A stretch of 64,000 bases of DNA from Plantibacter sp. PA-3-X8 (GTDB taxonomy: Bacteria; Actinomycetota; Actinomycetes; Actinomycetales; Microbacteriaceae), in NCBI RefSeq assembly GCF_003856975.1, contig NZ_CP033107.1, forward strand, positions 1,302,001 through 1,366,000, written 5' to 3'. Positions 23,222-43,216 of this stretch are shown piece after piece (position 1 is the first letter of the stretch; each line of letters starts with the position of its first letter). The position numbers were made by a program, and so were the translations under genes. Below the pieces are notes generated by a model, which did not search any database, was not told the DNA's origin, and worked only from the letters and a program-made list of their open reading frames with translations.

Positions 23222-23247
23222 AATACGACGTGATCGAGGAGACCGGC

Positions 23248-23928: not shown

Positions 23929-23931
23929 GTT

Positions 23932-23948
23932 TGTCCAAGGCTTGAACA
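23932..23948. promoter_or_regulatory. Putative ROK operator, copy 2
   Basis: TGTCCAAGGCTTGAACA, a 17-bp palindrome with one arm mismatch, stands in the 98-base gap before the binding-protein gene and probably lies at an internal promoter. Confidence 0.6.
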
Positions 23949-24026
23949 TAAGCTACTGTTCCTGACAACAGCATCGGCCGTCCTGACGACCGGTGCATCA
24001 GCGAAGGATTACGAGGAGGTAATTCC

Positions 24027-27192: not shown

Positions 27193-27194
27193 CC

Positions 27195-28166
27195 ATGACG
27201 GATCGGATCGCGACGCTCGTCGAACCACGGGCCCTCGGCGACACGGGTGTGTCGGTGAGTCCGATCATCGCGGGCGCAGCCGGGTGGCGGCGTCGGGAGG
27301 ACGGCTCGGGGTCCTCGCCGGAGGAGAGCCTCGAACTCGCCGCCGCCATGGCGGACGACGGTGTCGTCACCACGATCGACACCGCCAACAACTACGGCTT
27401 CGGTGACAGCGAGCGCCGCATCGCCTGGGTGCTTGCGCAGCTCGGCGGTGCAGGCGGACGGCTGTCGGTGCAGACGAAGGCCGATCGTGAGCCGGAGACC
27501 GATGACTTCTCCGCGCCGCAGATGCGTCGATCGCTCGAGCAGAGCATGGAACGGCTCGGCGTCGACCAGCTCCCGATGGTCTACCTGCACGATCCGGAGA
27601 ACACCACCTGGGAGCTCGCGATGGCCGATGAAGGCCCGGTGGCGGCGCTCGTCGCCGCTCGGGAGGAGGGACTCATCGGTGGTCTCGGGATCTCGGGTGG
27701 CCCGGCGGAGCTGCTGTCGCGATTCGTCGACACCGGCTGGTTCCAGGCGCTCATCACGCACAATCGCTTCACGCTCGTCGACCGCTCGTCCGATGCGTTG
27801 CTGACCCAGGCCGCGGCTGCGGGTCTCGGCGTCCTGAACGCGGCGCCCTACGGTGGTGGGCTGCTCACCAGGTGGCCCGTCCGCACCACGCGATACGCGT
27901 ACGGGACCGCGCCCGACATGATGCTCTCGGCCGTCGACCGCATCGGTCGCCTGTGCGACGAGGCCGGGGTCCCACTCGCCGCCGCCGCACTGCAGTGGTC
28001 GCTCCGCGACCCGCGCATCACCGGGACGATCGTCGGCTTGGAACGACTCGAGGACTACACGCACACGCTCGACCTCGCCGCCGTCCGGATCGACGACGCG
28101 CTCTGGACGGCGATCGAGTCGGTGCAGCTGGACCATTCGACGTGGCAGGACGCAACGCCGCACTGA
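27195..28166 (+). CDS. Aldo/keto reductase
   Basis: A 323-residue NADPH-dependent oxidoreductase with the TIM-barrel AKR fold. The tetrad is present: Asp62 and Tyr67 in TIDTANNYGFG, Lys95 in SVQTKAD, and His132 in VYLHDPE. The second ATG (27195) is preferred because GAAAGGA sits 5 bases before it; ATG 27189 overlaps the previous stop. Placed between a sugar importer and a glycosidase and behind a ThuA-like gene, it may reduce or oxidise a keto-sugar formed from the imported substrate. Confidence 0.85.
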   Translation: MTDRIATLVEPRALGDTGVSVSPIIAGAAGWRRREDGSGSSPEESLELAAAMADDGVVTTIDTANNYGFGDSERRIAWVLAQLGGAGGRLSVQTKADREPETDDFSAPQMRRSLEQSMERLGVDQLPMVYLHDPENTTWELAMADEGPVAALVAAREEGLIGGLGISGGPAELLSRFVDTGWFQALITHNRFTLVDRSSDALLTQAAAAGLGVLNAAPYGGGLLTRWPVRTTRYAYGTAPDMMLSAVDRIGRLCDEAGVPLAAAALQWSLRDPRITGTIVGLERLEDYTHTLDLAAVRIDDALWTAIESVQLDHSTWQDATPH

Positions 28167-28232
28167 CCGGTGCTCCATCCAGCCGATGAGCCCGGGCGTA
28201 CAAGCCAACTCACCCACCACTGAAGGACATCC

Positions 28233-30191
28233 ATGAAGCGGAATGCCGCCAAACTTCCGACCCCGGACGGCGTCGATGCCCTGATCGGGGTGAACTACTG
28301 GTCGCGCACCGGTGGGCCCCTCATGTGGCGGGACTACGACGGCGATGTCGTGGCGGAGGAGCTGGAGCAGCTCCGCGCGCACGGCATCACGCACACCCGC
28401 AGTTTCCTGTATTGGCCGGACTTCCATCCCGAGCCCGGCCGGCTGTCCGAGGAGATGCTGTCGCACTTCGCGGACTTCCTCCAGCGGCATGTCGACGCGG
28501 GGATGTGGACGATCCCGACGTTCCTGGTCGGACACATGTCCGCGCAGAACTGGGACCCGATCTGGCGTGACGGGCGGGACGTCTTCTCCGATGTGTGGTT
28601 CGTGGGCCGTCAGGCCTGGTACATCCGCGAGGTCGTCTCGCGGTTCACGGACAGTCCGGCGATCGACGGTTGGCTCTTGACGAACGAGGTGCCGATCTAC
28701 GCCGACTGGCGATCGCGTGGGATCGACACGATCGACGCCGAGGCGGTCACCGCCTGGGCACAGTTGCTGATCGACGCCGTACGGGCCGGTGGCGGAACCC
28801 AGCCGGTGTCCGTCGGCGAGGGTGCTTGGGGCGTCGAGATCACCGGGAACGACAACGGCTTCCGGGTCCGCGAACTCGAGCCGCTGATCGACTTCTTCGG
28901 GCCACACGTCTACCGCATGGAGGATGACCCGGTGCGCCAGCACCTCGGTGCGGCCTTCATCTGCGAGCTGCTGGACCTCGGTGGCAAGCCGGTCGTCATG
29001 GAGGAATTCGGGGTGACCTCGGACTACGTCGACGACGAGAACGCCGCGCACTACTACCGTCAGGTGCTGCATTCGACGCTCCTCGCCGGTGCCACAGCGT
29101 GGATCCCGTGGAACAACGTGGACTACGACGCGTTCTCTGACCGTGAGCCGTACACGCACCACCCGTTCGAGATGCACTTCGGTCTCGTCACCGAGCAGGG
29201 GGTCCCGAAGGCGCAGCTGCTCGAGGTACGCGACTTCGCGGCGACGCTCGCCGAGCTGGACTTCACCGGCCTCGAGCGGCCGGACACTCGTGTCGGTCTG
29301 CTGGTGTCGTCCTTCCTCGAGTCGCCCTACGCCTTCACCGCACGGGAGGACGGGCCGACGGTGTTCCAAGTCGCGCGGCAGGCGTACGTCGCGGCACGAA
29401 CGGCAGACCTGCCCATCGGCGTCGTCCGCGAGCTGGACGGACTCCCAGACGATCTCGATCTGATCATCGTCCCGTCGACCAAAGCGCTCCTCGCCCCGAC
29501 CTGGGCTGAGCTGGAACGGCGTGCCTCGGCGGGAGCGACGGTCTACGCCTCGTACTTCAACGGGATCCACGCGAACCAACGCGGCTCCTGGTGGCCGAAA
29601 CTCGACGATCTCTTCGGGGTGCGCAAGCGCCTGCGGTACGGCCTCATCGAGCCAGTCCTCGACGACACCGTCACTCTCGAGTTCCAAGCGGACTTCGGCG
29701 GGATCGCCCGCGGCACGACCCTCACATTCGTGGTCGGCGGCACGGTCGAAGGCCGTTCCCATCTGCCCGTCGAACCGGTCGACGCCGAGGTGATCGCGAC
29801 GGACGGGGCCGGCCGGCCGGCCCTCATCAGGCGCCGGGTCGGCAGCGGCTCGATGATCCTGTCCACCTACCCGATCGAGTACTTCGCCTCAGCGGTTGCC
29901 CGAGTCAACCCCGAGCCGACCTGGGAGCTCTACGCCGCGCTCGCTGCTGAGGCCGGCGCGGAACCCGAGGTCCGCGTCGAGGACAGCACGGTCATGACCG
30001 GGGGGATGCGGCATCGGGACGGTCGACGATTCGTGTGGTTCATCAGCCAGAGCGACCAGCCGACGACCTTCACCGCCGTCACCGACGGATTGCTGTACGA
30101 GCTCGGAGGCGAGACCGTCGTCGGGCCGGTGTCCCTGCCGCCCTTCGGGGTCGGCGTCTACGAGTTGGGTGCTGCTGCGCGGCTCGGCTGA
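28233..30191 (+). CDS. GH5-like cytosolic glycosidase with C-terminal amidotransferase-like domain
   Basis: A 652-residue enzyme. Residues about 15-350 form a clan GH-A barrel: LLTNEVP has the acid/base Glu152, and VVMEEFGV has the nucleophile Glu258. Residues about 360-560 look like the glutamine-amidotransferase-like (beta-galactosidase trimerisation) domain, followed by a small beta domain. There is no signal peptide, so it acts on imported oligosaccharides. GAAGGA lies 5 bases before ATG 28233. It is close to beta-mannosidase or beta-mannanase-like GH5 enzymes, but a beta-glucosidic or galactosidic substrate cannot be excluded. Confidence 0.78.
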   Translation: MKRNAAKLPTPDGVDALIGVNYWSRTGGPLMWRDYDGDVVAEELEQLRAHGITHTRSFLYWPDFHPEPGRLSEEMLSHFADFLQRHVDAGMWTIPTFLVGHMSAQNWDPIWRDGRDVFSDVWFVGRQAWYIREVVSRFTDSPAIDGWLLTNEVPIYADWRSRGIDTIDAEAVTAWAQLLIDAVRAGGGTQPVSVGEGAWGVEITGNDNGFRVRELEPLIDFFGPHVYRMEDDPVRQHLGAAFICELLDLGGKPVVMEEFGVTSDYVDDENAAHYYRQVLHSTLLAGATAWIPWNNVDYDAFSDREPYTHHPFEMHFGLVTEQGVPKAQLLEVRDFAATLAELDFTGLERPDTRVGLLVSSFLESPYAFTAREDGPTVFQVARQAYVAARTADLPIGVVRELDGLPDDLDLIIVPSTKALLAPTWAELERRASAGATVYASYFNGIHANQRGSWWPKLDDLFGVRKRLRYGLIEPVLDDTVTLEFQADFGGIARGTTLTFVVGGTVEGRSHLPVEPVDAEVIATDGAGRPALIRRRVGSGSMILSTYPIEYFASAVARVNPEPTWELYAALAAEAGAEPEVRVEDSTVMTGGMRHRDGRRFVWFISQSDQPTTFTAVTDGLLYELGGETVVGPVSLPPFGVGVYELGAAARLG

Positions 30192-30199: not shown

Positions 30200-31423
30200 T
30201 CAGCGTGTGAGCGCCGGCCCGTGTCCCGGGGCGATCGTGCCTTGTAGGACCAGCGACGCGGCGCCGATCGCTGCCGCGTCGCGCGGGTTGGCGGAGAGCT
30301 CGACCACGATCGGGTGGGCCCGCCGGGCGAAGAACCGCTGCTCGAGACGTTCGCGGATCGCACGGGCGTAGAGCGAACCGGCCACCGCCATGCCAGGGCC
30401 AGCGAGGACGAGCCGATCGAGGTCGAGCAGGTTCGCGAGTGTCACCGTGGCCGCGGCGACCCGGTCGGCCGAGTTCTGGATCAGGTCGAGCGCCACGTCA
30501 TGGCCGCTGACGGCGGCTCGGGCGAGCTGGTCGAAGTCGCGGCTGAGCGTCTCCGGTGCGAAGCCGAGCCCGAGTCCGTCGAGGCGATCCCGCGAGGCCT
30601 CGGCCGCCGCCATCACGGCTGCCGGTGCCGCGTAGCGCTCCAGGCATCCGCGGTTGCCGCAGTGGCAGGGGACGCCGTCGACCTCGATGCTGATGTGACC
30701 CAGCTCACCGGCGTTGGAGCTCGAACCACGATAGAGCGCACCGCCCAGCACCATTCCTGCGCCGATCCCGGTGCCCATGTAGACGCATGCGAAGGACTCC
30801 GTGCGCGACACCTGGCGACTCCAGAACTCACCGACCGCGGCGGCGGCGGCGTCGTTGTCGACGACCACCGGAACGTCGAGGCTCTCCTGCAACGCCTGCT
30901 GCAGGGGGAAGTCGTCCCAGCGTACGAGCGTGGGCGGACCGAGGAGGACACCGCCGAGTTGGGCGATCGGGCCGGGGGCGACGACGGCGACGCCCGCGAT
31001 CGACGGGGCCGCGAGCCCGACGCCGGCGACGAAGTCGCGGTAGAGCGTGACGAGTCGGTCGGTCACCTGCTCCGGCGTGGCCGAGCCTGCGCCGTCGACG
31101 AGCTGTCGGCCGACGACGCCGCCGCGGACGTCGGTGGCGACGAGCGTGATCGACTCGAATCCGAGCTGGATCCCGACGGCGTACTTGGCGCTCGCGTTGA
31201 TCTCGAGGAGGGTCCGCGGCTTGCCGCCGCGGGGCGCGGCCCGACCGGTCTCGCGGACGAGTCCGTCCTCGATGAGGCGGCGGACGATGTTGGAGATCGA
31301 CGGCTGGGTCAGACCCGTCGCCTCGGTGAGCTCGGTGCGGCTGATGGTGCCGGCCGAGCGGATGAGGTCGACGATGAGCGCCTGGCTGCCGGGACCCGAC
31401 TGCACGGACTCACGTCTGGCCAA
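30200..31423 (-). CDS. ROK family transcriptional repressor
   Basis: A regulator of about 407 residues with an N-terminal winged helix (ISRTELTEATGLTQPSISNIVRRL) and a ROK sugar domain with the complete zinc motif CHCGNRGCLE. The TTG at 31423 is chosen because GGGAGG stands 5 bases upstream; the GTG at 31474 would extend into the divergent promoter. It is divergent from the HTH-less LacI-type gene and the mannan operon and so is the best candidate repressor for them. Its end lies 8 bases from the convergent GH5-like gene. Confidence 0.86.
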   Translation of the reverse strand: MARRESVQSGPGSQALIVDLIRSAGTISRTELTEATGLTQPSISNIVRRLIEDGLVRETGRAAPRGGKPRTLLEINASAKYAVGIQLGFESITLVATDVRGGVVGRQLVDGAGSATPEQVTDRLVTLYRDFVAGVGLAAPSIAGVAVVAPGPIAQLGGVLLGPPTLVRWDDFPLQQALQESLDVPVVVDNDAAAAAVGEFWSRQVSRTESFACVYMGTGIGAGMVLGGALYRGSSSNAGELGHISIEVDGVPCHCGNRGCLERYAAPAAVMAAAEASRDRLDGLGLGFAPETLSRDFDQLARAAVSGHDVALDLIQNSADRVAAATVTLANLLDLDRLVLAGPGMAVAGSLYARAIRERLEQRFFARRAHPIVVELSANPRDAAAIGAASLVLQGTIAPGHGPALTR

Positions 31424-31453
31424 CTGTCCCTCCCGGCGATCTTCGAGCGCGTA

Positions 31454-31468
31454 GTGTGAGGGCCACAC
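31454..31468. promoter_or_regulatory. Short inverted repeat in the divergent promoter
   Basis: GTGTG-AGGGC-CACAC lies in the 74-base gap between the ROK and LacI-type genes, a possible operator. Confidence 0.35.
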
Positions 31469-31497
31469 GACCACTCCTCACGAAAGGCCGCGTCCCG

Positions 31498-32367
31498 ATG
31501 GGTCTCGATGCCGAACAGACTATCGCGCAGCCCCGGCCGATCGGCCTCACGCTGTTCCGGGCCTCGGAGATCTACGGCGCGGAGCCGTTCTACCACGAGC
31601 TCATCGCCGGCATCGATCGCGTCGTCCGCCCGCACGGCCTGTCCGTGTTACTCCGCGTGCTGCCGACGCGGGAGGAGGAGCTGCTGCAGCTCGGGCGCTG
31701 GCAGCAGGACGGAACGGTGAGCGCCGTCATCCTCGTGGACCTCATCGACGACGACGAGCGGGTGGCCTTCGTCGAGCGGTCCGCGATCCCGGCGATCGTG
31801 ATCGGCGCTCCGACGACGGCTCAGGGGCTCCCGGCGGTCTGGACCAACGACGCGGTCACGATGCACGAGGCCGTCGACCACCTCGTCTCGCTCGGGCACC
31901 GGCGTCTCGCGCACGTCACGGGTCCGCGCGAACTCACCCACACGCTGTCCCGGATGGAGGCGTTCACCCTCGCCTCCGACCTGCCCGACGTGGACACGGT
32001 CTCGATCGGCGGCGATTACTCGCGGACGTCCGGCTACCAGGCCATGCAGACGCTGCTCGCCCGAGAGCCCAGACCGACGGCGGTCGTCTTCGACAGCGAC
32101 GTGATGGCGCTCGGCGGGCTGCAGGCGGTGCAGGAGGCCGGGTTGCGGGTGCCCGACGACCTGTCGATCGTGGCGTGGGACGATTCGGCGCAATGCCAGC
32201 TGTCGGATCCGCCGATGTCGGCGCTCAGCCACGACGTGCAACGCATCGGCGAGATGGCGGGCGAGGAGCTGCTCGAGCTGTTGGCGGGTCGCCCAGGTGC
32301 CACAAGGGAAGCGCCGCACGCCGTGGTCATCGAGCGCTCCACCTCGGGTCCCGTCCCCGTCGCTTGA
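31498..32367 (+). CDS. LacI-type sugar-sensing domain protein without DNA-binding domain
   Basis: A 289-residue protein that aligns in layout with the effector half of LacI/GalR regulators: IGLTLFRASEIYGAEPFYHEL opens the first subdomain; later come HEAVDHLVSLGHRRLAHVTGP, the SDVMALGGLQAVQEAGLRVPDDLSIVAWDD signature and a final HAVVIERST strand. The first 50-60 residues of the family, with the helix-turn-helix and hinge, are absent, and none is found in any frame upstream, where the divergent ROK gene begins. GAAAGG precedes ATG 31498. It may sense a sugar and act through a partner, or be an inactive remnant; the intact frame favours function. Confidence 0.78.
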   Translation: MGLDAEQTIAQPRPIGLTLFRASEIYGAEPFYHELIAGIDRVVRPHGLSVLLRVLPTREEELLQLGRWQQDGTVSAVILVDLIDDDERVAFVERSAIPAIVIGAPTTAQGLPAVWTNDAVTMHEAVDHLVSLGHRRLAHVTGPRELTHTLSRMEAFTLASDLPDVDTVSIGGDYSRTSGYQAMQTLLAREPRPTAVVFDSDVMALGGLQAVQEAGLRVPDDLSIVAWDDSAQCQLSDPPMSALSHDVQRIGEMAGEELLELLAGRPGATREAPHAVVIERSTSGPVPVA

Positions 32368-32403
32368 GGTTTCGAGGGCGCGAGTGGGGTGGATTCCCTG
32401 TGA

Positions 32404-32440
32404 TCGATTTGTTATATAAATTAATAATGTTTAGTCTTGA
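32404..32440 (+). promoter_or_regulatory. AT-rich promoter/operator of the mannan operon
   Basis: The stretch GATTTGTTATATAAATTAAT and the bases after it up to TTTAG are almost free of G/C in a 70% GC region, with a loose GTTAT...ATAAT symmetry. ROK repressors often bind such AT-rich sites. The exact promoter boxes cannot be fixed. Confidence 0.5.
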
Positions 32441-32522
32441 CGGGCGTGAGACGGCAGACGATGCTGGACAGCGAGCGACGAGGCGACCCGGCCCTTCGCC
32501 CTCATGAACGAAGGAGTTCCCC

Positions 32523-33821
32523 ATGTCCCGGAGACCGATCATCGGCCTCGCCGCAACGGCTGCGGCCGCGGCACTCGTCCTCAGCGGCTGCTCCGGTGGA
32601 GCGGCCAACGACGACGGCGACCCGAGCGGCGAGATCACCGTCCTCACGAACCGTACCGACCTCGTCGACACCACCTTCAAGGACTACGCGACCGAGTTCG
32701 AGAAGCAGTACCCCGGCACCACCGTCAAGTTCGAGGCTCTGACCGACTACGAGGGCGATGCCAAGATCCGGCTCAACTCGAAGGACTACGGCGACGTGCT
32801 CCTCATCCCCTCGTCGAACGTCACCAAGGACCAGTACGCGAACTTCTTCGAGCCGCTCGGCAGCACCGACGAGCAGTCCAAGACCTACCGCTTCGCGAAC
32901 GAGGCCTCCTTCGACGGCACGGCCTACGGCGTCTCGACCTTCGGTTCCGCCATGGGCTACGTCTTCAACCGCGACGTGTGGACCAAGGCCGGGATCACCG
33001 AGCCTCCGGCCACTGAGGAGGAGTACCTCGCCGCACTCGAGAAGATCAAGGCGACCGGCTCGATCCCGTACTACACGAACTACAAGGACGGCTGGCCGCT
33101 CGCGACGCTCGAGGGCAACCTCGGAGCCGTGCAGGGCCCGAAGGTCCGCACCGAGATGATCGCGACCGACAGCCCCTGGACCGAGGGCAACGACCAGTAC
33201 AACATCGACGGTCTCCTCTTCGACACCGTCGCCGCCGGCCTGAGCGAGCCGGACCCCACCACCACCAACTGGGAGGAGTCGAAGAACCTCCTCGCCTCCG
33301 GTGAGATCAGCTCGATGGTGCTCGGCTCCTGGGCCGTCTCGCAGATGCAGGACGCGGCCGAGAAGGCCGGCGAGTCCCGCGACGTGATCGGCTTCTGGCC
33401 GATGCCGTGGAAGACCGACGACGGCTTCACCTCCGTCACCGCCTCCGACAAGTTCCTGGCGGTCAGCAAGTACTCGAAGAACAAGGCGACCGCGAAGGCC
33501 TGGATCGACTGGTTCACGAACGAGTCCGGATTCGCCGCGAGCCAGGGTGCCATCAGCCCCGTCATCAGCGACCCGGCACCCGACACGCTGGCCGACTTCT
33601 CCGATCTCGGCGTCACCTACCTGGAGCTCGCTCCGGACCCGGTGGGCAAGGAGGCCGTGATCAACGACATCGCCAACGCCGCCGAGATCGACCTCTTCGG
33701 CAACACCTACCGCCAGAAGCTCATCGACATCGCCCGCGGCGCAGCCGACGGCGACAAGGAGAGCGCCTTCGCCGACCTCAACGAGCGCTGGGCGGCCGCC
33801 CGCGCGGACGTCGCCGAGTAG
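32523..33821 (+). CDS. ABC importer sugar-binding lipoprotein of the mannan operon
   Basis: A 432-residue family 1 binding protein. The lipobox LVLSGC gives Cys23. Segments such as GVSTFGSAMGYVFNRDVW and MVLGSWAVSQMQ are typical of cytoplasm-facing MalE-like folds. AAGGAG lies 6 bases before ATG 32523. A 14-bp stem-loop separates it from the permease genes, an arrangement that raises binding-protein levels over permease levels. Because the operon continues with beta-mannosidase, mannanase and mannose-6-phosphate isomerase, manno-oligosaccharides are the likely ligand. Confidence 0.9.
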   Translation: MSRRPIIGLAATAAAAALVLSGCSGGAANDDGDPSGEITVLTNRTDLVDTTFKDYATEFEKQYPGTTVKFEALTDYEGDAKIRLNSKDYGDVLLIPSSNVTKDQYANFFEPLGSTDEQSKTYRFANEASFDGTAYGVSTFGSAMGYVFNRDVWTKAGITEPPATEEEYLAALEKIKATGSIPYYTNYKDGWPLATLEGNLGAVQGPKVRTEMIATDSPWTEGNDQYNIDGLLFDTVAAGLSEPDPTTTNWEESKNLLASGEISSMVLGSWAVSQMQDAAEKAGESRDVIGFWPMPWKTDDGFTSVTASDKFLAVSKYSKNKATAKAWIDWFTNESGFAASQGAISPVISDPAPDTLADFSDLGVTYLELAPDPVGKEAVINDIANAAEIDLFGNTYRQKLIDIARGAADGDKESAFADLNERWAAARADVAE

Positions 33822-33834
33822 CACCCATCCGATC

Positions 33835-33871
33835 GACACCCGGGCCCGTCCCCACGGCGGGCCCGGGTGTC
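33835..33871 (+). terminator. Intercistronic stem-loop between binding protein and permeases
   Basis: A perfect 14-bp stem (33835-33848 with 33858-33871) and a 9-base loop with no T-run. It probably protects the upstream message or partially terminates, setting a high ratio of binding protein to permease. Confidence 0.75.
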
Positions 33872-33903
33872 CTCCACCCCGCGCAGCGAAGAAGGCAACC
33901 AGC

Positions 33904-34863
33904 ATGGTCACAGTCCAGGGAGCGTCACCCGCCACCCGAGCGGTGGTGACGAACCATCCACGCCCGCCGCGCACCCTGCGCCCGGGCAGACCCCCGAAGG
34001 CCACCGGGTCGCGTGTCACCCCCTGGCTCTTCCTCGTGGTGCCGCTCGCCTTCCTGATCGTGCTCACCTACGTGCCGGTCGCGAACATGTTCTGGTACAG
34101 CCTCACCTCGTGGGACGGACTCGAACCAGAGCAGGAGTTCGTCGGCATCGACAACTTCGTGCAGATCTTCACGAAGCCGGAGATCTTCCAGGTCTTCTTC
34201 GTGAGCCTGTACTACCTCGTCGGGGCCGTCGCCCAGCTCGTCCTGGCGCTGTACCTCGCCACGCTGTTGAGCTTCCGCACCCGCTTCAAGAACCTCTTCA
34301 AGGGCGTCATCTTCTTCCCCTACCTCATCAACGGGGTCGCCATCGGGCTGGTCTTCCTCTACTTCCTCCGCCCAGGCGGCACCCTCGACGCCCTCCTCGC
34401 GGCGGTCGGCGTGCAGGACACCCCGCAGTGGCTCGGCGACCCCTCGTTCGTGAACGCCTCCCTCGCCGCCACGTCCGTCTGGCGGTACATGGGCCTCAAC
34501 TTCGTCCTGTTCCTCGGTGCGATCCAGTCGGTCCCGTCCGAGCAGTACGAGGCCGCGGACCTCGACGGCGCCAACTCGTGGCACAAGTTCCGCTTCATCA
34601 TCCTGCCGAGCATCCGGCGCATCCTCGGCCTCTCGTTCATCCTGGCCATCGCCGGAGCACTGTCCGCCTTCGAGATGCCGTACGTCATGACCGGCGGTGC
34701 CAACGGCTCCGAGACCTTCGTGATCCAGACGGTGAACACGGCTTTCAAGTTCTCGAAGGTGGGTTTGGCGTCCGCGATGGCCGTCGTCCTGCTGCTGATC
34801 GTCCTGGTCATCACCTTCGTCCAACGCCGGGTCTTCCCCGACGAGAAGGGAGGCGAATCGTGA
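33904..34863 (+). CDS. ABC sugar permease, MalF type (mannan operon)
   Basis: A 319-residue permease with a Pro/Arg-rich cytosolic N-terminus, six hydrophobic helices and the EAA loop QYEAADLDGANSW. ATG 33904 follows GAAGG. It ends in a GTGA overlap with the next permease. Confidence 0.9.
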   Translation: MVTVQGASPATRAVVTNHPRPPRTLRPGRPPKATGSRVTPWLFLVVPLAFLIVLTYVPVANMFWYSLTSWDGLEPEQEFVGIDNFVQIFTKPEIFQVFFVSLYYLVGAVAQLVLALYLATLLSFRTRFKNLFKGVIFFPYLINGVAIGLVFLYFLRPGGTLDALLAAVGVQDTPQWLGDPSFVNASLAATSVWRYMGLNFVLFLGAIQSVPSEQYEAADLDGANSWHKFRFIILPSIRRILGLSFILAIAGALSAFEMPYVMTGGANGSETFVIQTVNTAFKFSKVGLASAMAVVLLLIVLVITFVQRRVFPDEKGGES

Positions 34864-35780
34864 CCGCCACCGCCGACCGACCGGTCTCCGCTGCCACACC
34901 CGAGCCCCGACGCGCACTGCGACGGACGCGGCGCGGGCCGAAGCGCCCACAGGGTGCCGTCGCCCTCACCGCGACGACGATCAAGTACGCCTCGCTCATC
35001 ATCGCGAGCCTCTTCGCGGTGGTCCCCCTGGCCACGATCTTCATGCTCGCCTTCAAGACCGACCGCGAACAGCGGACGACCGGTCCCCTCACCCCGCCGT
35101 CGAACTGGTTCAACTTCGACAACTTCGTCGTCGCCTTCGACCAGGGCGGCATGGTCACCGGATTCCTCAACACCGCGATCATCCTGCTCGTGTCCGTGGC
35201 CGGGACCATCCTGATCGGCACCATGTCGGCCTACGCACTCGACCGGTTCCGCTTCCGCGGACGGAAGCTCGTCATGGGCCTGTTCCTCCTGGCGACGCTC
35301 GTGCCGTCGGTCACGACCCAGGTGGCCACGTTCCAGGTGGTGTCCGCACTCGAGCTGTTCAACACCCGTGGCGCCGCGATCCTCCTCTTCATGGGGACCG
35401 ACATCGTCGCGATCTACATCTTCCTGCAGTTCATGCAGTCGATCCCCGTCTCCCTCGACGAGGCGGCGATGCTCGACGGCGCGAACCGCTTCACGATCTA
35501 CTGGCGCATCATCCTCCCGCTGCTGAAGCCCGCCGTCGCGACGGTCGTCATCATCAAGGGCATCGCCATCTACAACGAGTTCTACATCCCCTTCCTGTAC
35601 ATGCCGTCGCAGGACCTAGGGGTGATCTCCACCTCGCTGTTCCGGTTCATGGGACCGTTCGGCGCCCAGTGGCAGATCATCGCGGCCGGGACGATCCTCG
35701 TGATCATCCCGACGCTCGTCGCCTTCCTCTTCCTGCAGCGATACATCTACAACGGCCTGACTTCTGGAGCAACCAAGTGA
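34860..35780 (+). CDS. ABC sugar permease, MalG type (mannan operon)
   Basis: A 306-residue permease with a basic N-terminal tail (RRALRRTRRGPKRP), six helices and the EAA loop LDEAAMLDGANRF. The GTG start overlaps the previous stop, with GGGAGG upstream. It ends in a GTGA overlap with the beta-mannosidase gene, showing that transport and hydrolysis are translated as one unit. Confidence 0.9.
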   Translation: MTATADRPVSAATPEPRRALRRTRRGPKRPQGAVALTATTIKYASLIIASLFAVVPLATIFMLAFKTDREQRTTGPLTPPSNWFNFDNFVVAFDQGGMVTGFLNTAIILLVSVAGTILIGTMSAYALDRFRFRGRKLVMGLFLLATLVPSVTTQVATFQVVSALELFNTRGAAILLFMGTDIVAIYIFLQFMQSIPVSLDEAAMLDGANRFTIYWRIILPLLKPAVATVVIIKGIAIYNEFYIPFLYMPSQDLGVISTSLFRFMGPFGAQWQIIAAGTILVIIPTLVAFLFLQRYIYNGLTSGATK

Positions 35781-38263
35781 GCATCATCGACACCGCCACC
35801 GTCCGTCCCCTGACCACCCGCCTCCTGCACGAGGGGTGGAGTCTGCGTGCGGTCGGTGGCGCGATCCCCGAGGCATTCGTCGGGACGAGCGTGCCCGCGA
35901 CGGTGCCCGGCCTCGTGCACACGGACCTCCTCGACGCCGGGCTCATCCCCGACCCCTTCCTCGACCGCAACGAGCACCTCGTGACGTGGATCGGATCGAC
36001 GGACTGGGAGTACCGCACCACCTTCACGTGGGAGCCGGACGGCCACGAGCGGCACGACCTCGTGTTCGAGGGACTCGACACCGTGGCGACGGTGACCGTG
36101 AACGGCTCGGTCGTCGCGACCACGCGGAACCAGCACCGCACCTACCGCATCGACGTCGGTGCCGTCCTGCGCGAGGGTGAGAACGAGCTGGTCGTGCACT
36201 TCGCCTCGCCCGTTGCGGCTGCCGACCTGGCCAGCCTCGAGATAGGCTACCGCCCCCACACCTACTCCCACCCGTTCAACGCCATCCGCAAGGCCGCCTG
36301 CAACTTCGGCTGGGACTGGGGACTCGACGCCGCCTCGTCGGGACTCTGGAAGCCCGTGAGTCTGCAGTCATGGTCGACGGCCCGGCTCGCCTCGGTGCGT
36401 CCGGTCGTGACCGTCGATGGCGGCGAGGGCCGGGTGGCCGTGCACGTCGACGTGGAACGCGCCGGCGACGGTGACGCGCCCCTCGCGCTCACAGCGACGG
36501 TCGCCGACGCGAGCACTGATGTCGTCCTCGCGGCCGGTGCCGACACCGCGGTGGTCGAGCTCACCGTCGCGGATGCCGAACTGTGGTGGCCTCGCGGGTA
36601 CGGCGAGCAGCCGCTGTACGACCTCGACGTCGTGCTCGGACAGGACGAGGCACGCCTCGGCGAGTGGTCGAGGCGTATCGGGTTCCGGACCGTCGAGGTC
36701 GAACTCGAACCCGACGCGGAGGGCACCTCGTTCCGCTTCGTCGTGAACGGCGAGGCCATCTGGGTGCGAGGCGCCAACTGGATCCCCGACGACGCCTTCG
36801 TGACCCGCGTGGATCGCGCACGGCTCGCGCGCCGGATGGACCAAGCCGAGTTCGCGAACCTCAACCTGCTCCGAATCTGGGGCGGCGGCTACTACGAGTC
36901 CGACGACTTCTACGAGCTCTGCGACGAGCGCGGGATCATGGTCTGGCAGGACTTCCTCTTCGCCTGCGCGGCCTATGCCGAGGAGGAGCCGCTGTGGAGC
37001 GAGGTCGAGGCTGAGGCACGCGACAACATCACGCGCATCATGCCGCACGCGAGCCTCGTGCTGTGGAACGGCAACAACGAGAACATCTGGGGCTTCGAGG
37101 AGTGGGGCTGGGAGAAGCGCGTCCAGGGCCGTACCTGGGGCATGGGCTACTACCTCGACCTGCTGCCGCGGCTCGTCGCCGAGCTCGACCCGGCCGGCAA
37201 CTACACCGCGGGCAGCCCCTGGTCGGGAACGCCGGACATCCCGGCCAACGACCCGGACCACGGATCCGTGCACCTCTGGGAGCTGTGGAACCGCGTCGAC
37301 TACCCCGCCTACCGCGACGTCTCGCCGCGCTTCGTGGCCGAGTTCGGTTGGCAGGGTCCGGCGACGTGGTCGACGATCGATCGAGCCATCTCGGACTCCC
37401 CGCTCACGCCGGAGTCGCCCGGCATGATCCACCATCAGAAGGCGACGGACGGGAACGACAAACTGACCGACGGACTCGTCGCGCACCTGCCGCTGCCGGA
37501 CGACACCGAGGACTGGCACTGGGCGATGTCGCTCAACCAGGCCAACGCCGTGACCGTCGCGATCGAGCACTTCCGGTCGTGGAGCCCACGCTGCATGGGG
37601 TCGATCGTCTGGCAGCTGAACGACTGCTGGCCAGTCACGTCCTGGGCGGCCGTCGACGGCGACGAGCGCGCGAAGCCGCTGCTCTACGCCTTGCGACACG
37701 TCTACGCCGACCGGCTCGTGACCGTGCAGCCGCGAGGGGAGTCCCTCGTGGTCGCCGTGCTCAACGACGGCCCGGATGCCTGGGCGGACGACCTCGTCAT
37801 CCGGCGCCTCCGGTTCGACGGGACCGAACTCGCCTCGGTGCGCGTCCCGGTCGACCTGGACCGACGCTCCTCGACGCTCGTCGAGATCCCCGAAGCGGTC
37901 GCGGTCGCGGGCTCGGCACCCGATGAAGTGCTCGTCGCCACAGTCGGGGCGGAACGCGGCTTCTGGTCCTTCGCCGAGGCACGTGATTCGACGATCCCCG
38001 CCCCTCGGTTCAGCGCCGAGGTCGCCCGCCAGGAGGACGGTTACGCCGTGACCATCACGGCCGAGTCGTTCCTTCGCGACCTCACGCTGCTCGTCGACAA
38101 GCTGGACCCGGCCGCCGTCGTCGACGACCAGCTCGTGACCCTCCTGCCGGGAGAGCGCGTGACGTACCACGTGCGGACCGAGGTGGAACTCGGCGAGGAC
38201 GAGCTCCTGTCGACCCGGGTCGTGCGCACCGCGAACCAGCTGGTCGAGGACTGGGCACGGTGA
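35777..38263 (+). CDS. Beta-mannosidase, glycoside hydrolase family 2
   Basis: An 828-residue cytosolic exo-enzyme that removes terminal beta-mannose from oligosaccharides. Domains in order: sugar-binding jelly roll (about 10-175), immunoglobulin-like (190-305), TIM barrel (about 310-640, acid/base Glu435 in NGNNENIWG, nucleophile Glu522 in FVAEFGWQG), then C-terminal beta domains. The phrase FNAIRKAACNFGWDWG is typical of the beta-mannosidase branch of GH2. There is no signal peptide. The GTG start overlaps the permease stop. It feeds mannose to the ROK kinase encoded next. Confidence 0.93.
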   Translation: MSIIDTATVRPLTTRLLHEGWSLRAVGGAIPEAFVGTSVPATVPGLVHTDLLDAGLIPDPFLDRNEHLVTWIGSTDWEYRTTFTWEPDGHERHDLVFEGLDTVATVTVNGSVVATTRNQHRTYRIDVGAVLREGENELVVHFASPVAAADLASLEIGYRPHTYSHPFNAIRKAACNFGWDWGLDAASSGLWKPVSLQSWSTARLASVRPVVTVDGGEGRVAVHVDVERAGDGDAPLALTATVADASTDVVLAAGADTAVVELTVADAELWWPRGYGEQPLYDLDVVLGQDEARLGEWSRRIGFRTVEVELEPDAEGTSFRFVVNGEAIWVRGANWIPDDAFVTRVDRARLARRMDQAEFANLNLLRIWGGGYYESDDFYELCDERGIMVWQDFLFACAAYAEEEPLWSEVEAEARDNITRIMPHASLVLWNGNNENIWGFEEWGWEKRVQGRTWGMGYYLDLLPRLVAELDPAGNYTAGSPWSGTPDIPANDPDHGSVHLWELWNRVDYPAYRDVSPRFVAEFGWQGPATWSTIDRAISDSPLTPESPGMIHHQKATDGNDKLTDGLVAHLPLPDDTEDWHWAMSLNQANAVTVAIEHFRSWSPRCMGSIVWQLNDCWPVTSWAAVDGDERAKPLLYALRHVYADRLVTVQPRGESLVVAVLNDGPDAWADDLVIRRLRFDGTELASVRVPVDLDRRSSTLVEIPEAVAVAGSAPDEVLVATVGAERGFWSFAEARDSTIPAPRFSAEVARQEDGYAVTITAESFLRDLTLLVDKLDPAAVVDDQLVTLLPGERVTYHVRTEVELGEDELLSTRVVRTANQLVEDWAR

Positions 38264-39273
38264 CCCTGGCGGACATGACCGCGGAGCGGGATCCGTCGGG
38301 GTCGGTCGCGCTCGCGGTCGACCTCGGCGGCACCAAAGTGGAGGCCGCGCTCGTCACGGCCGAGGGCGTCGTGGTCGACGGCAGCGCGCATCGGGCGCCG
38401 ACGGGGCCCGATGCAGGGCGCCGTGCACTGGAAGACGCCGTCGACCGAGTGGTCCTCGCCTCGATCGCGCACCTGCCGGACGGTTCCGCGCTCGTCGGCG
38501 TCGGCATCGGTTCGGCGGGTCCCGTCGACCTCGGCCGCGGCACCGTGAGCCCGAAGAACCTCCCGCGACTGCACGGCTTCGACCTCCGGACACACATCGC
38601 GCGGCTGTTACCGGACGCCCCGGTGGTGGTCCGTCTCGACGGGACCTGCATCGCGCTCGCGGAGCACTGGCTTGGAGCGACCCGCGGCACCGAGAACTCG
38701 ATGGCGATGATCGTCTCGACCGGTGTCGGCGGCGGGATCATCCTGCACGGGCGGTTGATCGCCGGCCGGAGCGGCAACGCCGGCCACATCGGTCAGGTGC
38801 AGATCGCCTCGCGCGTACCTGGAGAGTCCGCCGACGACGCGACGCTCGAGCGCATCGCCTCCGGACCACGGAGCGTCGCCTGGGCGCGGGCCCACGGCTG
38901 GGACGGCCGCACCGGCGAGGAGCTCGCCGTCGACGCCTCGGCGGGGGATCCCGTCGCGCGGTCCGCTGTCGTCCGTTCGGCCACCGCGGTCGGACAGGCG
39001 ATCGCGAGTGCCGCGACCCTGCTCGACCTGGAGGCGGTCGCCGTCGGCGGCGGGTTCACCGCCGTCAGCACCGACTATCTCGACCTCGTCCGTGCCGCGG
39101 TGCAGGACGCCATCGTCCTCGACTACGCGGCCGGCGTCGTCGTGACCGGTTCCGCTCTCGACGGCGCGGGTCCGATCCTCGGCGCCGCAGCACTCATCCA
39201 CCGACCGGAGGCACTCGGCCTCCCACCGCTCGACCCGATGCACCATCCCAGACGAAGGAGCCTGGCACGATGA
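38260..39273 (+). CDS. ROK family sugar kinase, probable mannokinase
   Basis: A 337-residue kinase with the phosphate-binding motif ALAVDLGGTKVEAA near residue 17 and the second ATP segment IVSTGVGGGIILHG, but no DNA-binding domain, so it is an enzyme, not a repressor. The usual zinc cluster CxCGxxGC is absent; the region after GNAGHIGQ has no cysteines. GTG 38260 overlaps the GH2 stop; ATG 38275 is an alternative. Sitting between beta-mannosidase and mannose-6-phosphate isomerase, its substrate is inferred to be mannose. Confidence 0.82.
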   Translation: MTLADMTAERDPSGSVALAVDLGGTKVEAALVTAEGVVVDGSAHRAPTGPDAGRRALEDAVDRVVLASIAHLPDGSALVGVGIGSAGPVDLGRGTVSPKNLPRLHGFDLRTHIARLLPDAPVVVRLDGTCIALAEHWLGATRGTENSMAMIVSTGVGGGIILHGRLIAGRSGNAGHIGQVQIASRVPGESADDATLERIASGPRSVAWARAHGWDGRTGEELAVDASAGDPVARSAVVRSATAVGQAIASAATLLDLEAVAVGGGFTAVSTDYLDLVRAAVQDAIVLDYAAGVVVTGSALDGAGPILGAAALIHRPEALGLPPLDPMHHPRRRSLAR

Positions 39274-42011
39274 ATCGCACCCCCGACCCCCGCCCATCGC
39301 ACCGCGACACGAGCGGCCGCCTCGCCGCCGGCATGCTCGCGGCGGCCGTCACCGCCGCACTGCTCCCGGCGCTCGCGGCGCCGGCAGCTGCCGCCCCGGC
39401 CGACTGGACCTCGCGCAACACCTCGTTCGTCGAGCGTGACGGCTCCCGCCTCGTGCTCGACGGCGAGACCTTCCGCTTCAGCGGTCCGAACATCTACTGG
39501 CTCGGTCTGGACGAGAACGTGGGCGGGGTCGACTACCCGACTGCGTTCCGCATCGCTGACACCCTCGATGCGGCGGCCAGGATGGGTTCGACCGTCGTGC
39601 GGACGCACATGATGACCTCGACGGGCCAGGACGGTGCGAACCCCCTGGCGATCATGCCGGCCCTCGGGCAGATGAACGACGAGGCGTTCGCGACGATCGA
39701 CTTCGCCGTCGCGTACGCCGGCAAGCTCGGCATCCGGCTGGTGCTCCCGCTCACCGACGAGTGGGAGTACTACCACGGCGGGCATCGCGACTTCACGACC
39801 CCGTACGGGCTGACGTCGGCCGACTTCTACACCGACGAGCGGCCGATCGCCGCCTACCAGGCCTACGTCGACGCGATCCTGCAGCGGACGAACGCGCTGA
39901 CCGGCGTCCCGTACATCGAGGACCCGACGATCATGGCGTGGGAGCTCGGGAACGAGTTGGAGGGGATGACCGCAACGTGGATCGACCGGCAGGTCGCGTT
40001 CATCAAGGAACGCGCCCCACAGCAGCTCGTCGCGGCCGGTCGGCGATTCGACATCGACCCGGACACGCTCTCCGCGCCGGAACTCGACATCGTCGATGTG
40101 CACTACTACCCGCCCACCGCCGCACGCGTGTCCGCGGACGCGGCCACGGTCACCGCCGCGGGCAAGGTCTACCTGGCCGGCGAGTACGCCTCCACTGCTG
40201 CGAGCCCGGCGTTGCTCGAACCGCTCGTCGCCGACCCGAACGTGACCGGCATGCTGTTCTGGTCGCTGTTCGGCAACAGCGACCGTGGTGGGCTCGTCCC
40301 GCACGACGACGGGTTCACGATCCATGCACCCGGTGCGACCGATGCCGAGCGCGCCCGGGTCTCCGCGATCACCGCCTATGCCGCTGCGATCGGTGCCGTG
40401 CCGGCTGCTCCCGCCGTCGGGACACCGCTCATCACAGCGGTCGACCGCGCGGACGGCATCAACACCGTCCGATGGCGCGGGGCCGGCGGCGCGGTCTCGT
40501 ACCGGCTCGAACGCTCGCTCGACGGGATCTCGTGGACCGCGGTCGACACCGGCGCGCTCCGGGCCGATGCCGGGTCCGCGACGGACTTCGCCTCGCCGAC
40601 GGGAGCGGTCTACCGCGTCGTCGCGATCGACGGGGCCGGGGCCGACGCGGCGCTGTCGGACCCGGTCACGACCGAGACCGACACCCGCGTGCTCGTCGAC
40701 CCGCTCGAGTCCTGGCTGCTCACCGAGGCGCACGACGGTGCGACGATCGTTCCACGCGCAGATGGGACGAGCGTGGTCGCCGCCTCCGATGGAGCCAGCG
40801 TCACCTGGAAGCAGGACCGACTCTCGGCGGCGTCGTTCATCGTCTCCGGATCGGTCGTGGTCGAGTCCAGCGCTGACGGTTCAGCCTGGGTGACCGCCGC
40901 GGCCGAGGTCGGACCCGGCGGCACGGTGATCGCTCGCGATCTGGCGGGGCCGTACCTCCGGGTGACCCTCGCCGCCGACGCGACCGTGTCGCGGGCCACC
41001 ATCTGGTCGGCGGTGGACGCTCCGAGCGGGCCGCCGGCGGCGTTCGCATCCGTCTCACCGGCGCCCGGCACCGTCGATGTGACCGCGACGCCGACCTTCA
41101 CCTGGGAGTCGGCGGCCGGTGCGGCCTACTACCGCTTCACGCTCGCCGCGCAGGCCGACCTCGGAAACCCGGTCGTCGTCGTCGACGGTGTCGGAACCCC
41201 CTCGGTCACCCCGACGGTCTCCCTCATGCCGGGACAGCGGTACTGGTGGTCGGTCACCGCGGTCAACGGAGCCGGGACGACCGCAGCGAGCACGGGAGCG
41301 GCGGACTTCCTCATGAAGGCGCTGCCGAGCGAACCGCTCGTCGTCGAGGACTTCGAGTCGTACGCCGATGACGCCGCCCTGCAGGCCGCCTACGTGCGGA
41401 ACAGCGGGGGCGGCGCCGTGACACCGACGCTCACGCCGAACCCCGACACCGGCACGAACGCGATGTCGGCCGCGTACGACCTCGCCGGTCCCGGCTATGC
41501 CGGCGTCGTCCGCACCTTCCAGACACCGCAGGACTGGTGGGGCTACACCGGGCTCCAGCTCTGGGTGCAGGGGACACCGGGCGACGACGTCACCGTCCAG
41601 TTCGTGACGCGTGGGACGTACTGGGAGACGGTCGCGCCCATCGAGGGCGAGGGTTGGCAGCTGATCGAGATCCCGTTCTCGGCCTTCGCCCCACCGGCCT
41701 GGGCCGGCGAGGCGGCGTTCGACCCGACCTCCGTCACCCAGATCGGGTTCTACCTCGGTGGTGAAGGATCCGGCACCCTGCTGGTCGACGACGTCGTCAC
41801 GACGGTCGCGGCGGTGGAGCCGGAGCCGGAACCGGGCACGGGACAGCCGGGCACGGGACAGCCTGGAGGGTCGGGCGGCACCGACCCGGTGGCGCCGACG
41901 GGCGACCTCGCCCGCACCGGCCTGGACGCCACGCCCTGGATCGTCGGCGCGTTCGCGCTGCTCGCGATGGGTGGTCTGCTGCTGGTCCGCGGTCGACGGC
42001 GGGCTCTCTGA
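39270..42011 (+). CDS. Cell-wall-anchored GH5 beta-mannanase with LARTG sorting signal
   Basis: A 913-residue exported enzyme. Residues 1-42 are a signal peptide; 45 to about 375 form a GH5 barrel with acid/base Glu229 in WELGNELEG, VHYY at 277-280 and nucleophile Glu305 in YLAGEYAS. Then come fibronectin-III-like modules (about 385-470 and 600-685) and a galactose-binding-like (CBM11-type) module at about 690-848. A PEPEPGTGQPGTGQPGG linker leads to LARTG (880-884), a hydrophobic stretch and the tail RGRRRAL. LAxTG is the motif of class E sortases in high-GC actinobacteria, so the enzyme is probably fixed to peptidoglycan. ATG 39270 overlaps the kinase stop, with AAGGAG 9 bases before. Confidence 0.88.
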   Translation: MNRTPDPRPSHRDTSGRLAAGMLAAAVTAALLPALAAPAAAAPADWTSRNTSFVERDGSRLVLDGETFRFSGPNIYWLGLDENVGGVDYPTAFRIADTLDAAARMGSTVVRTHMMTSTGQDGANPLAIMPALGQMNDEAFATIDFAVAYAGKLGIRLVLPLTDEWEYYHGGHRDFTTPYGLTSADFYTDERPIAAYQAYVDAILQRTNALTGVPYIEDPTIMAWELGNELEGMTATWIDRQVAFIKERAPQQLVAAGRRFDIDPDTLSAPELDIVDVHYYPPTAARVSADAATVTAAGKVYLAGEYASTAASPALLEPLVADPNVTGMLFWSLFGNSDRGGLVPHDDGFTIHAPGATDAERARVSAITAYAAAIGAVPAAPAVGTPLITAVDRADGINTVRWRGAGGAVSYRLERSLDGISWTAVDTGALRADAGSATDFASPTGAVYRVVAIDGAGADAALSDPVTTETDTRVLVDPLESWLLTEAHDGATIVPRADGTSVVAASDGASVTWKQDRLSAASFIVSGSVVVESSADGSAWVTAAAEVGPGGTVIARDLAGPYLRVTLAADATVSRATIWSAVDAPSGPPAAFASVSPAPGTVDVTATPTFTWESAAGAAYYRFTLAAQADLGNPVVVVDGVGTPSVTPTVSLMPGQRYWWSVTAVNGAGTTAASTGAADFLMKALPSEPLVVEDFESYADDAALQAAYVRNSGGGAVTPTLTPNPDTGTNAMSAAYDLAGPGYAGVVRTFQTPQDWWGYTGLQLWVQGTPGDDVTVQFVTRGTYWETVAPIEGEGWQLIEIPFSAFAPPAWAGEAAFDPTSVTQIGFYLGGEGSGTLLVDDVVTTVAAVEPEPEPGTGQPGTGQPGGSGGTDPVAPTGDLARTGLDATPWIVGAFALLAMGGLLLVRGRRRAL

Positions 42012-43216
42012 TGGCGCTGCACCGCATCACCAGCGACCCCAAGCGGTACGCCTGGGGGTCGACGACGGCCATCCCGGAGCTGCTGGGGGTACCCGCCGAC
42101 GGTTCGCCCCAGGCGGAGCTCTGGCTCGGGGCACACCCTGGCAGCGTGACCGAGTTCGTCGAGCCGGGTCACGGTCGTCCCGACAGCCTCAACGACTGGA
42201 TCGCGTCGGACCCCGACGCGGCTCTCGGTGGGCGCCCCAGGATGCCGTTCCTGGTGAAGCTGTTAGCCGCCGCGAGGCCGCTCTCCCTCCAGGTCCACCC
42301 CACGCCCGACCGGGCCAGGGCGGGGTTCGCGGACGAGGACCGCCGCGGCGTGTCACTGGACGCACCGCATCGGAACTACAAGGACGCCTGGCACAAGCCG
42401 GAGATCATCGTCGCCCTGCAGGACGGCTTCCGCGCCCTCTGCGGATTCCGGGCGGTCGAGGAGTCGCGCGCATTCCTCATGCACCTGTCCGCCTACGTCG
42501 AGGGGCGTGACCGGATGGTGCTCGAGGCGTTCGAGGCGGAGCTCCGTGACGCCGGTCTGGAACCGACGGTGCGAGCGGTGCTCGAACGACGGACGCCCGG
42601 CGTGGTCGCTGCCCTGGTGACGGCCGCCGGTGTCGGCACCGACAGCGGAGCGGTCCCGGACGCCGACGGTCGATCGCGCTGGTCGGCCGAGCGCGAGCTC
42701 ATCCTGCAGCTCGCCGAAGAGTACCCGGGGGACCCCGGCATCGTCGTCGCGGCGCTCCTCAACCTCGGGACGTTGCGGGAGGGTGAGGCGTTGTTCCTGC
42801 CCGCGGGGAACATCCACGCCTACCTCTCCGGCTTCGGGGTCGAGGTCATGGCCTCGAGTGACAATGTGCTCCGCGGCGGACTGACGCCGAAACACGTCGA
42901 CGTTCCGGAGCTTCTCGCGGTTCTCGATTTCGAACCATCGCCGGTCCCGTTCGTCGAGCCGATCGTGCGAACCGGCGGTGGGGTCATGTACCCGGTGCCG
43001 GTCGACGACTTCCGGCTCGTCCGGATCGGTCCCGGGACGGCGACCGACCTTGCTCGCGGCCAGGCGGCGGTGATCCTCGTGACCGGCGGTACGGCGCGGG
43101 TGGAACAGGGTGCGGACACCGTCGTGCTCGAGCGCGGGACAGCGGTGTTCGTCTCTCCGGGGCCGGAGCCGGTGACGGTGTCCACGGACGGTAGGGTCTT
43201 CGTCGCCACCGGCTGA
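42011..43216 (+). CDS. manA: Mannose-6-phosphate isomerase, class I
   Basis: A 401-residue zinc enzyme converting mannose-6-phosphate to fructose-6-phosphate. The metal ligands are visible in SLQVHP, HKPE and GNIHAY, with the catalytic arginine region in VLRGGLTPKHVDV. Its ATG shares a base with the preceding stop (TGATG). As last gene of the operon it joins released mannose to glycolysis; GDP-mannose supply may also depend on it. No strong terminator follows, only a short direct repeat of ACCGGCTG. Confidence 0.94.
   Translation: MALHRITSDPKRYAWGSTTAIPELLGVPADGSPQAELWLGAHPGSVTEFVEPGHGRPDSLNDWIASDPDAALGGRPRMPFLVKLLAAARPLSLQVHPTPDRARAGFADEDRRGVSLDAPHRNYKDAWHKPEIIVALQDGFRALCGFRAVEESRAFLMHLSAYVEGRDRMVLEAFEAELRDAGLEPTVRAVLERRTPGVVAALVTAAGVGTDSGAVPDADGRSRWSAERELILQLAEEYPGDPGIVVAALLNLGTLREGEALFLPAGNIHAYLSGFGVEVMASSDNVLRGGLTPKHVDVPELLAVLDFEPSPVPFVEPIVRTGGGVMYPVPVDDFRLVRIGPGTATDLARGQAAVILVTGGTARVEQGADTVVLERGTAVFVSPGPEPVTVSTDGRVFVATG

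Follow-up and report, generated by a model that had tools for sequence, protein, structure and literature searches.

How is a predicted beta-mannan operon controlled when the LacI-type gene beside it lacks the helix-turn-helix (HTH) domain with which LacI proteins bind DNA? Here we address this question in Plantibacter sp. PA-3-X8 (Microbacteriaceae), using a window of 64,000 nucleotides (C1:1302001–1366000, the whole stretch of DNA analysed) from its 4.08 Mb single-contig genome. Upstream of an operon at 32523–43216 lie the HTH-less LacI-type gene (31498–32367) and a divergently transcribed repressor gene of the ROK family (30200–31474). A first-pass annotation of the interval 31498–43216 had described a mannan operon; the operon does lie within that interval, but the LacI-like gene that starts at 31498 was omitted from the list of genes and regulation was not mentioned. 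We propose, with a probability of roughly 0.7, that the products of these two genes form a two-protein mannan repressor, in which the ROK protein would bind DNA and the HTH-less LacI would sense mannosides.

A LacI-type sensor without a DNA-binding domain

The gene at 31498–32367 (plus strand) starts with the ATG at 31498, in an open frame that itself begins at GTG 31456, and encodes a sugar-binding protein of 289 amino acids. The LacI-type C-terminal sugar-binding domain is present (113 and 58 bits for PF13377 and PF00532), and the N-terminal HTH domain PF00356 is absent both from this protein and from all of the 32 aligned family members, in each of which the sensor domain stands alone. In the available text of PMC4052901, a LacI-family transcription factor is defined by an N-terminal HTH (PF00356) plus a sensor; under this usual definition the 31498 gene is not a LacI-family transcription factor.

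A LacI-sensor profile finds 38 places in the Plantibacter genome, among which the 31498 gene scores 449 bits and the runner-up 116 bits, and PF00356 finds 39 places, of which the 31498 gene is not one. All of the 120 listed homologues (of 1577) lack PF00356, are 268–326 amino acids long and share 47–96% identity; because these homologues and the aligned members are uniformly without the HTH, we regard the gene as belonging to a conserved HTH-less family and not as a local accident. Thirty-three columns are at least 95% identical across 51 aligned HTH-less rows, and R152 and D228, which we take to be canonical residues of the LacI sugar pocket, are kept at 98–100%. Identity to the other Plantibacter records is 95–97% (loci L002–L004) and 100% (L012).

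An HTH missed through a wrong start or a frameshift was considered and rejected: a six-frame search of the 600 bp upstream found an HTH in none of 82 HTH-less rows, and the same test was positive in 28 of 28 HTH-bearing relatives. In the window, the space upstream of the gene is occupied by the divergent ROK repressor gene, the outermost start of which is 24 bases away.

Linkage to a ROK repressor

The proposed DNA-binding subunit is encoded on the minus strand at 30200–31474, starting at GTG 31474 or slightly further inside. Its combination of an intact winged helix (PF12802/PF13412) with a ROK domain (PF00480, 183 bits) marks it as a predicted ROK transcriptional repressor; its PDB matches are the ROK repressor Lmo0178 (best) and Mlc, and direct reading of the protein shows that the ROK zinc and ExGH motifs are retained.

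A family-alignment scan of GTDB species genomes gave 303 confirmed places, of which the best 80 were used as the locus set. An orthologue of the ROK repressor lies within 3.5 kb of the HTH-less LacI gene in 74 of these 80 loci, on the opposite strand in 68 and in tandem in 6 (L035, L039, L049, L062, L063 and L073), and most opposite-strand pairs stand start to start. In L080, the two are a single open frame of 732 residues. Four further loci have a ROK gene on the contig of the LacI gene but at a greater distance, about 9 kb (L055), 12 kb (L074), 13 kb (L058) and 19 kb (L077), with matches of 338–448 bits and 47–54% identity. The contig of L078 ends around 490 bases upstream of the LacI frame, and the best ROK match of that genome (221 bits) is on another contig. 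A relative of the window GH2, GH5 or GH26 glycoside hydrolase is present within 12 kb in 74 of the 80 loci. The HTH-less LacI and this ROK repressor thus stay together across many actinobacteria, in arrangements that include start to start, tandem, about 4, 9, 12 or 20 kb apart, and fused.

Among 249 Microbacteriaceae genomes we found 114 members of the LacI-type family at E ≤ 1e-60, 38 without and 76 with an HTH. A ROK gene (251–905 bits, 40–100% identity) lies within 25 kb of all 38 HTH-less members and of only 1 of the 76 HTH-bearing relatives, a base rate on which chance proximity was rejected. The sole exception is a second LacI, 18 kb from the ROK gene; the Plantibacter genome in which it lies has the HTH-less pair as well. 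Every one of the 27 genomes with a ROK match of at least 325 bits also has an HTH-less LacI.

In a tree of 134 rows, loss of the HTH maps as one change (support 94), and a test of independent pairs on it gives 1 pair and no significance; a reading of the linkage as many separate gains was rejected on these grounds. A first tree, of a different set of rows, required two changes, with L074 and L077 apart, and without its outgroup placed the HTH-less rows on one side with a support no higher than about 20. In an even sample of 396 genomes from the phylum, 22 contain a family member at E ≤ 1e-45, and only two of these members, that of the window and that of L084, are without an HTH.

Several loci depart from the common layout. 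In L058 and L074, an HTH-bearing relative accompanies the HTH-less LacI within 5 kb and the ROK gene is 12–13 kb away, which is perhaps an intermediate state. A second HTH-less subclade in Microbacteriaceae (L215–L227, L230 and L231) has a relative of the window GH2 in 12 of 15 loci and a ROK gene 1–22 kb away, with only 40–50% identity to the window ROK; no SBP1-type match (SBP, solute-binding protein) was found in these loci, and open reading frames (ORFs) of about 330 and 570 amino acids stand in its place. In four genomes (G490, G532, G471 and G583) two ROK paralogues flank one HTH-less LacI, so that two ROK proteins might share one sensor.

A conserved palindrome at two promoters

Between the stop of the HTH-less LacI gene and the start of the SBP operon, an AT-rich palindrome stands directly 5′ of a −35-like TTGAC. 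This predicted operator, TATATAAATTAATAATGTTTAGT, spans 32413–32435 on the plus strand, is followed by CTTGACG at 32436 and scores 36.2 bits with a position weight matrix (PWM) built from 56 distinct sites of the loci described above, of which it is one. Inspection of the sequences shows the palindrome in loci that range from Plantibacter to Bifidobacteriaceae, Actinoplanes and Streptosporangiaceae. Its core, ATTANTAAT, occurs in 68 of 81 loci (the window plus L002–L081) and in none of three rounds of shuffling, is followed by TTGA 4–12 bases on in 64 of the 81, and also adjoins the fusion gene. A PWM site of at least 20 bits is present in 75 of the 80 loci. Binding of the ROK protein at this site is suggested indirectly, by the conservation of the palindrome at promoters.

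The second-best PWM match in the window, at 13235–13257 (plus strand; 26.2 bits, not a training site), is followed by the −35-like CTTGACC at 13258 and precedes a predicted secreted GH26 endo-beta-mannanase (13330–14340, plus strand); every other match of at least 8 bits overlaps one of these two sites. The GH26 protein has a signal-like N terminus, is the sole PF02156 match in the genome (158.6 bits) and has mostly named mannanases among its PDB matches, with GH26A (6q75) best at 195.8 bits and mannanases next; domain and kin together point to a mannanase. Because the same operator stands 7 bases ahead of CTTGAC at both promoters, we group the GH26 gene with the operon, although it lies 18 kb before the LacI-like gene. 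In Plantibacter flavus (L003) and VKM Ac-1784 (L012), the distance is only about 2.4 kb, and a 23-bit operator site again lies upstream of the GH26 gene.

A search of the Plantibacter genome for ATTANTMATN7CTTGAC that allowed as many as 2 mismatches finds the GH26 and SBP promoters (0 mismatches each) and one further place (2 mismatches). A tie between the secreted GH26 and the operon, made in the first-pass annotation, is thereby strengthened, as the two have an operator in common and nowhere else in the genome matches with fewer than 2 mismatches. Across the 249 genomes, the exact pattern gives 17 matches in 15 genomes, of which 10, in 9 genomes, fall at the loci studied here and the other 7 do not; as a reversed control gives 8 matches, the pattern is at background outside these loci. 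Beside HTH-bearing relatives, 28 of 29 loci have no site of at least 12 bits, and one has a site of 12.6 bits.

Natural fusions of the two proteins

A protein search with the L080 fusion returned five full-length ROK–LacI proteins of 688–696 amino acids (P0121–P0125), all from metagenome-assembled genomes and metagenomes; P0121 is the fusion of L080 itself, and the other four are 65–88% identical to it. We modelled a natural fusion of 696 residues with AlphaFold2 (five models), using 28 aligned natural sequences; a larger alignment of ROK proteins, LacI proteins and the fusion misplaced the LacI sequences (16–23% identity) and was set aside in favour of smaller sets. The best model has a mean predicted local distance difference test (pLDDT) score of 87.8 and a predicted template modelling (pTM) score of 0.84, and its single segment with pLDDT below 50 is the linker (405–418). 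We take a pTM of 0.84 in a chain of 696 residues with two rigid halves to mean that the mutual placement of the ROK and LacI halves is probably predicted with confidence. A Foldseek search with the model matched one half to ROK repressors and the other to the LacI-family structure 4o5a (TMt 0.91).

Proposed mechanism

We envisage 31498–43216, together with the GH26 gene at 13330, as a beta-mannan utilisation regulon. Secreted GH26 and wall-sorted GH5 enzymes would cut mannan chains outside the cell, and the products would then pass through an ATP-binding cassette (ABC) importer without an ATPase gene of its own, the GH2 beta-mannosidase, the ROK kinase and ManA, presumably ending as fructose-6-phosphate. 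The ROK repressor (30200–31474) would bind the twofold symmetric RATTANTAAT beside the −35 elements of the SBP and GH26 promoters and repress both. The HTH-less LacI (31498–32367), which should be unable to bind DNA through the usual LacI domain, would serve as its sugar-sensing partner: a mannoside in the LacI cleft, probably a beta-manno-oligosaccharide, would act through a protein–protein contact either to release the ROK protein from the operator or to hold it there. As the ROK protein retains its own sugar-pocket motifs, two sugars may be read together.

A broader proposal, which we favour with somewhat less confidence, is that a permanently HTH-less LacI sensor serves the ROK repressor in trans as the subunit that reads the ligand, bringing two sugar pockets to one operator, and that this arrangement arose once by loss of the HTH, spread over several actinobacterial families and became fused in a line related to Propionibacteriaceae.

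The mannan operon

The operon (32523–43216, plus strand) is of a known kind and ordinary in its make-up, and domain matches confirm all seven products named in the first-pass annotation. It opens with a solute-binding lipoprotein of a CUT1-type sugar ABC importer (32523–33821; PF01547, lipobox-like LSGC), followed after a gap of 82 bases by permease A (33904–34863; PF00528) and then by permease B (34860–35780; PF00528), which shares 4 bases with permease A. From permease A to ManA, consecutive genes overlap start to stop by 4, 4, 4, 4 and 1 bases, so the overlaps noted previously do run through most of the operon.

The predicted GH2 beta-mannosidase (35777–38263; PF22666 and PF00703) has beta-mannosidases at the head of its PDB matches, the best being 5n6u at 452 bits. 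Direct reading of the protein locates Glu435 in NGNNEN and Glu522 in VAEFG, which we take to be the candidate acid/base and nucleophile, respectively; by sequence, the enzyme is kin to characterised beta-mannosidases and has both candidate catalytic glutamates. The next protein (38260–39273) has the features of a ROK sugar kinase, with PF00480 as its only domain, an intact DLGGTK motif of the DxGxT-like ATP-binding type and no HTH; its nearest PDB chains are the glucokinase 3vov (best) and N-acetylmannosamine (ManNAc) kinases. The predicted secreted GH5 mannanase (39270–42011) combines PF00150 (33.6 bits against a cut-off of 23.5) with a CBM11 (PF03425) and has a signal-like N terminus; each of its 16 PDB matches bears the name of a mannanase or an exo-mannosidase (1uuq by way of a second name, MAN5A). 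Its C terminus reads LARTG from residue 880, then a hydrophobic stretch and RGRRRAL, which fits a cell-wall sorting signal and agrees with its description as wall-anchored. Family membership alone does not give the specificities of the GH2 and GH5 enzymes. The last gene encodes a type I mannose-6-phosphate isomerase, ManA (42011–43216; PF20511).

To call the operon complete was an overstatement. Its CUT1 importer consists of an SBP and two permeases, and no ABC ATPase gene was found within 32523–43216; the whole genome has one MalK-type OB match, at C1:2115031. A second ManA-type gene lies at C1:3543434, and the sugar used by the kinase cannot be read from its sequence. The route from mannan through mannose and mannose-6-phosphate to fructose-6-phosphate agrees with the enzyme families and with their best solved relatives. 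The expected recurrence of the gene order was found: SBP, two permeases, GH2, an optional ROK kinase and an optional GH5 or GH26 follow one another in other Microbacteriaceae and beyond (loci L002–L079).

Other genes in the window

Between the GH26 gene and the other operons, 14258–20601 contains a carboxylesterase-family ORF (14258–16873), in which the family match begins at residue 372, and then an SBP and two permeases. These genes could possibly contribute mannan deacetylation and oligomer uptake; because the GH26 gene is directly beside the ROK gene in the Plantibacter records L003 and L012, they may represent an insertion or rearrangement. The neighbouring operon (21962–30191) has its own divergent HTH-bearing ROK repressor (21962–23155), a ThuA-like protein, an SBP, permease genes, an aldo/keto reductase and a GH5_18-like protein (28233–30191), which has a sub-threshold GH42M-like match and, among its PDB matches, the endo-beta-mannanase 7bob and GH5_18 enzymes; the window PWM scan found no operator of the SBP/GH26 type in this operon. 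At 49815–56967, a divergent full-length LacI regulator with an HTH accompanies an operon with an SBP, a permease and a GH78 alpha-L-rhamnosidase, an ordinary LacI arrangement that is a useful contrast to the HTH-less gene. A DUF222 plus HNH endonuclease protein (56985–58478) adjoins the GH78 gene.

Alternative explanations

Several observations weigh against a two-protein repressor. Neighbourhood alone would equally fit two independent regulators of one operon, and the 38-of-38 linkage counts as one long-kept association rather than as repeated origins, because HTH loss maps once. Eleven of the 48 genomes with a ROK match of at least 280 bits have no HTH-less match at the cut-off used. The PWM takes its training sites from these very loci, and the pattern ATTANTMATN7CTTGAC was written from the two sites that it finds, so that the pattern is informative only in that nothing else matches well; its reversed control gives 2 matches in the Plantibacter genome. 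L055, L077, L042, L056 and L074 have either a weak operator (15.4 and 14.0 bits) or none. The operator is also seen for one HTH-less subclade only, as all 15 second-subclade loci examined (of 17 further Microbacteriaceae loci) have no site of at least 12 bits. Finally, the fusions belong to one lineage, and the fifth AlphaFold2 model reaches a pLDDT of only 72.9.

The same 11 genomes, and the zinc and ExGH motifs retained by the ROK protein, would suit a regulon controlled by the ROK repressor alone, reading mannose as does Thermotoga ManR, a ROK regulator of mannan genes for which the available text of PMC3750489 gives mannose as the effector. The HTH-less LacI would then be a separate cytosolic sugar-binding protein, either a buffer or another sensor, that is near only because the cluster moves together. 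We judge this unlikely: five natural fusions join the two proteins, just these two genes are packed start to start in most named loci, the pair persists where other genes separate the two or their order has changed, and the fused chain has a high pTM. LacI cores dimerise, and the HTH-less protein could instead join an HTH-bearing LacI from another part of the genome, in a hetero-dimer or with a dominant-negative effect, with the ROK protein as an additional, independent regulator. Such a partner is available at the same cut-off in 17 of the 38 genomes with an HTH-less copy, and lies nearby in L058 and L074; however, the other 21, including that of the window, have none, the runner-up LacI in the Plantibacter genome scores far lower than the 31498 gene, the operator was not seen next to relatives that have the HTH and the fusions seen join the sensor to a ROK protein, all of which makes this very improbable. 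The absence of the family-defining domain might also mark the LacI-like gene as a decaying, functionless remnant of a full regulator. To this we attach almost no credence, given that 82 HTH-less rows from at least 7 named families have retained an unbroken reading frame through the sensor domain, with the near-invariant columns and narrow length range already described.

A separate issue is whether the enzymes serve a beta-mannoside other than plant mannan, such as the N-glycan core Man-beta-1,4-GlcNAc (GlcNAc, N-acetylglucosamine), or a beta-glucan. The GH5_18-like protein next door, with its separate transporter, has ScGH5_18 and BlGH5_18, enzymes with an N-glycan role, among its PDB matches, and GH2 and GH5 membership is compatible with either. 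We nevertheless think another substrate improbable, as the co-regulated GH26 and the secreted GH5 both have mannanase matches and the operon encodes ManA, whereas the GH5_18-like operon has its own ROK repressor and no such operator.

Comparison with known systems

Few families of sugar repressors are better known than LacI and ROK, and each is commonly regarded as self-contained. If our reading is correct, sensing and DNA binding can be split between the two families, and the database name ‘LacI family DNA-binding transcriptional regulator’ is wrong for genes of this type. In the literature searched, most subscription papers being outside that search, we found no account of a ROK protein paired with a LacI that lacks its HTH; within this scope, the pair would be a class of two-protein sugar repressor without an earlier description. 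With natural fusions, an operator of 23 bp and apparently no more than two promoters in the regulon, the idea could be tested on a small number of proteins, and the pair is a possible mannan-responsive switch for actinobacteria.

The closest parallel from the ROK side is the Mlc–EIIB complex (PDB 3bp8), in which a ROK repressor has a protein partner that signals the state of sugar supply by binding to it; the partner there is a transporter domain of the phosphotransferase system and not a LacI-type sugar-binding protein. From the LacI side, fusions of a GntR winged helix to a LacI sensor domain, presumably the AraR-type regulators, likewise provide a LacI sugar sensor with a DNA-binding domain from outside the family. 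They differ in being covalent fusions to a bare winged helix, whereas the partner in the Plantibacter-type pair is a whole ROK repressor, usually a separate chain and fused only in P0121–P0125 among the proteins seen. The GntR–LacI combination is on record in the available text of PMC4052901. The make-up of the Plantibacter importer, an SBP plus two permeases with no ATPase gene alongside, also has a likeness in sugar ABC importers that rely on a shared ATPase of the MsmK type, a case recorded in the available text of PMC4746261.

For mannan itself, two systems are informative. ManR of Thermotoga maritima is, as we propose for the Plantibacter ROK protein, a ROK repressor that acts on mannan genes; mannose is the reported effector of ManR. 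It belongs to Thermotogales, not to actinobacteria, and the available text of PMC3750489 mentions no HTH-less LacI partner. GlyR2 of Clostridium thermocellum shares with the proposed Plantibacter system a LacI-type sensor for the control of beta-mannan use and responds to mannobiose; it is described as a LacI regulator, with no ROK partner mentioned in the available text of PMC10766802. The Plantibacter pair, if it exists as proposed, would combine ManR-like and GlyR2-like sensing.

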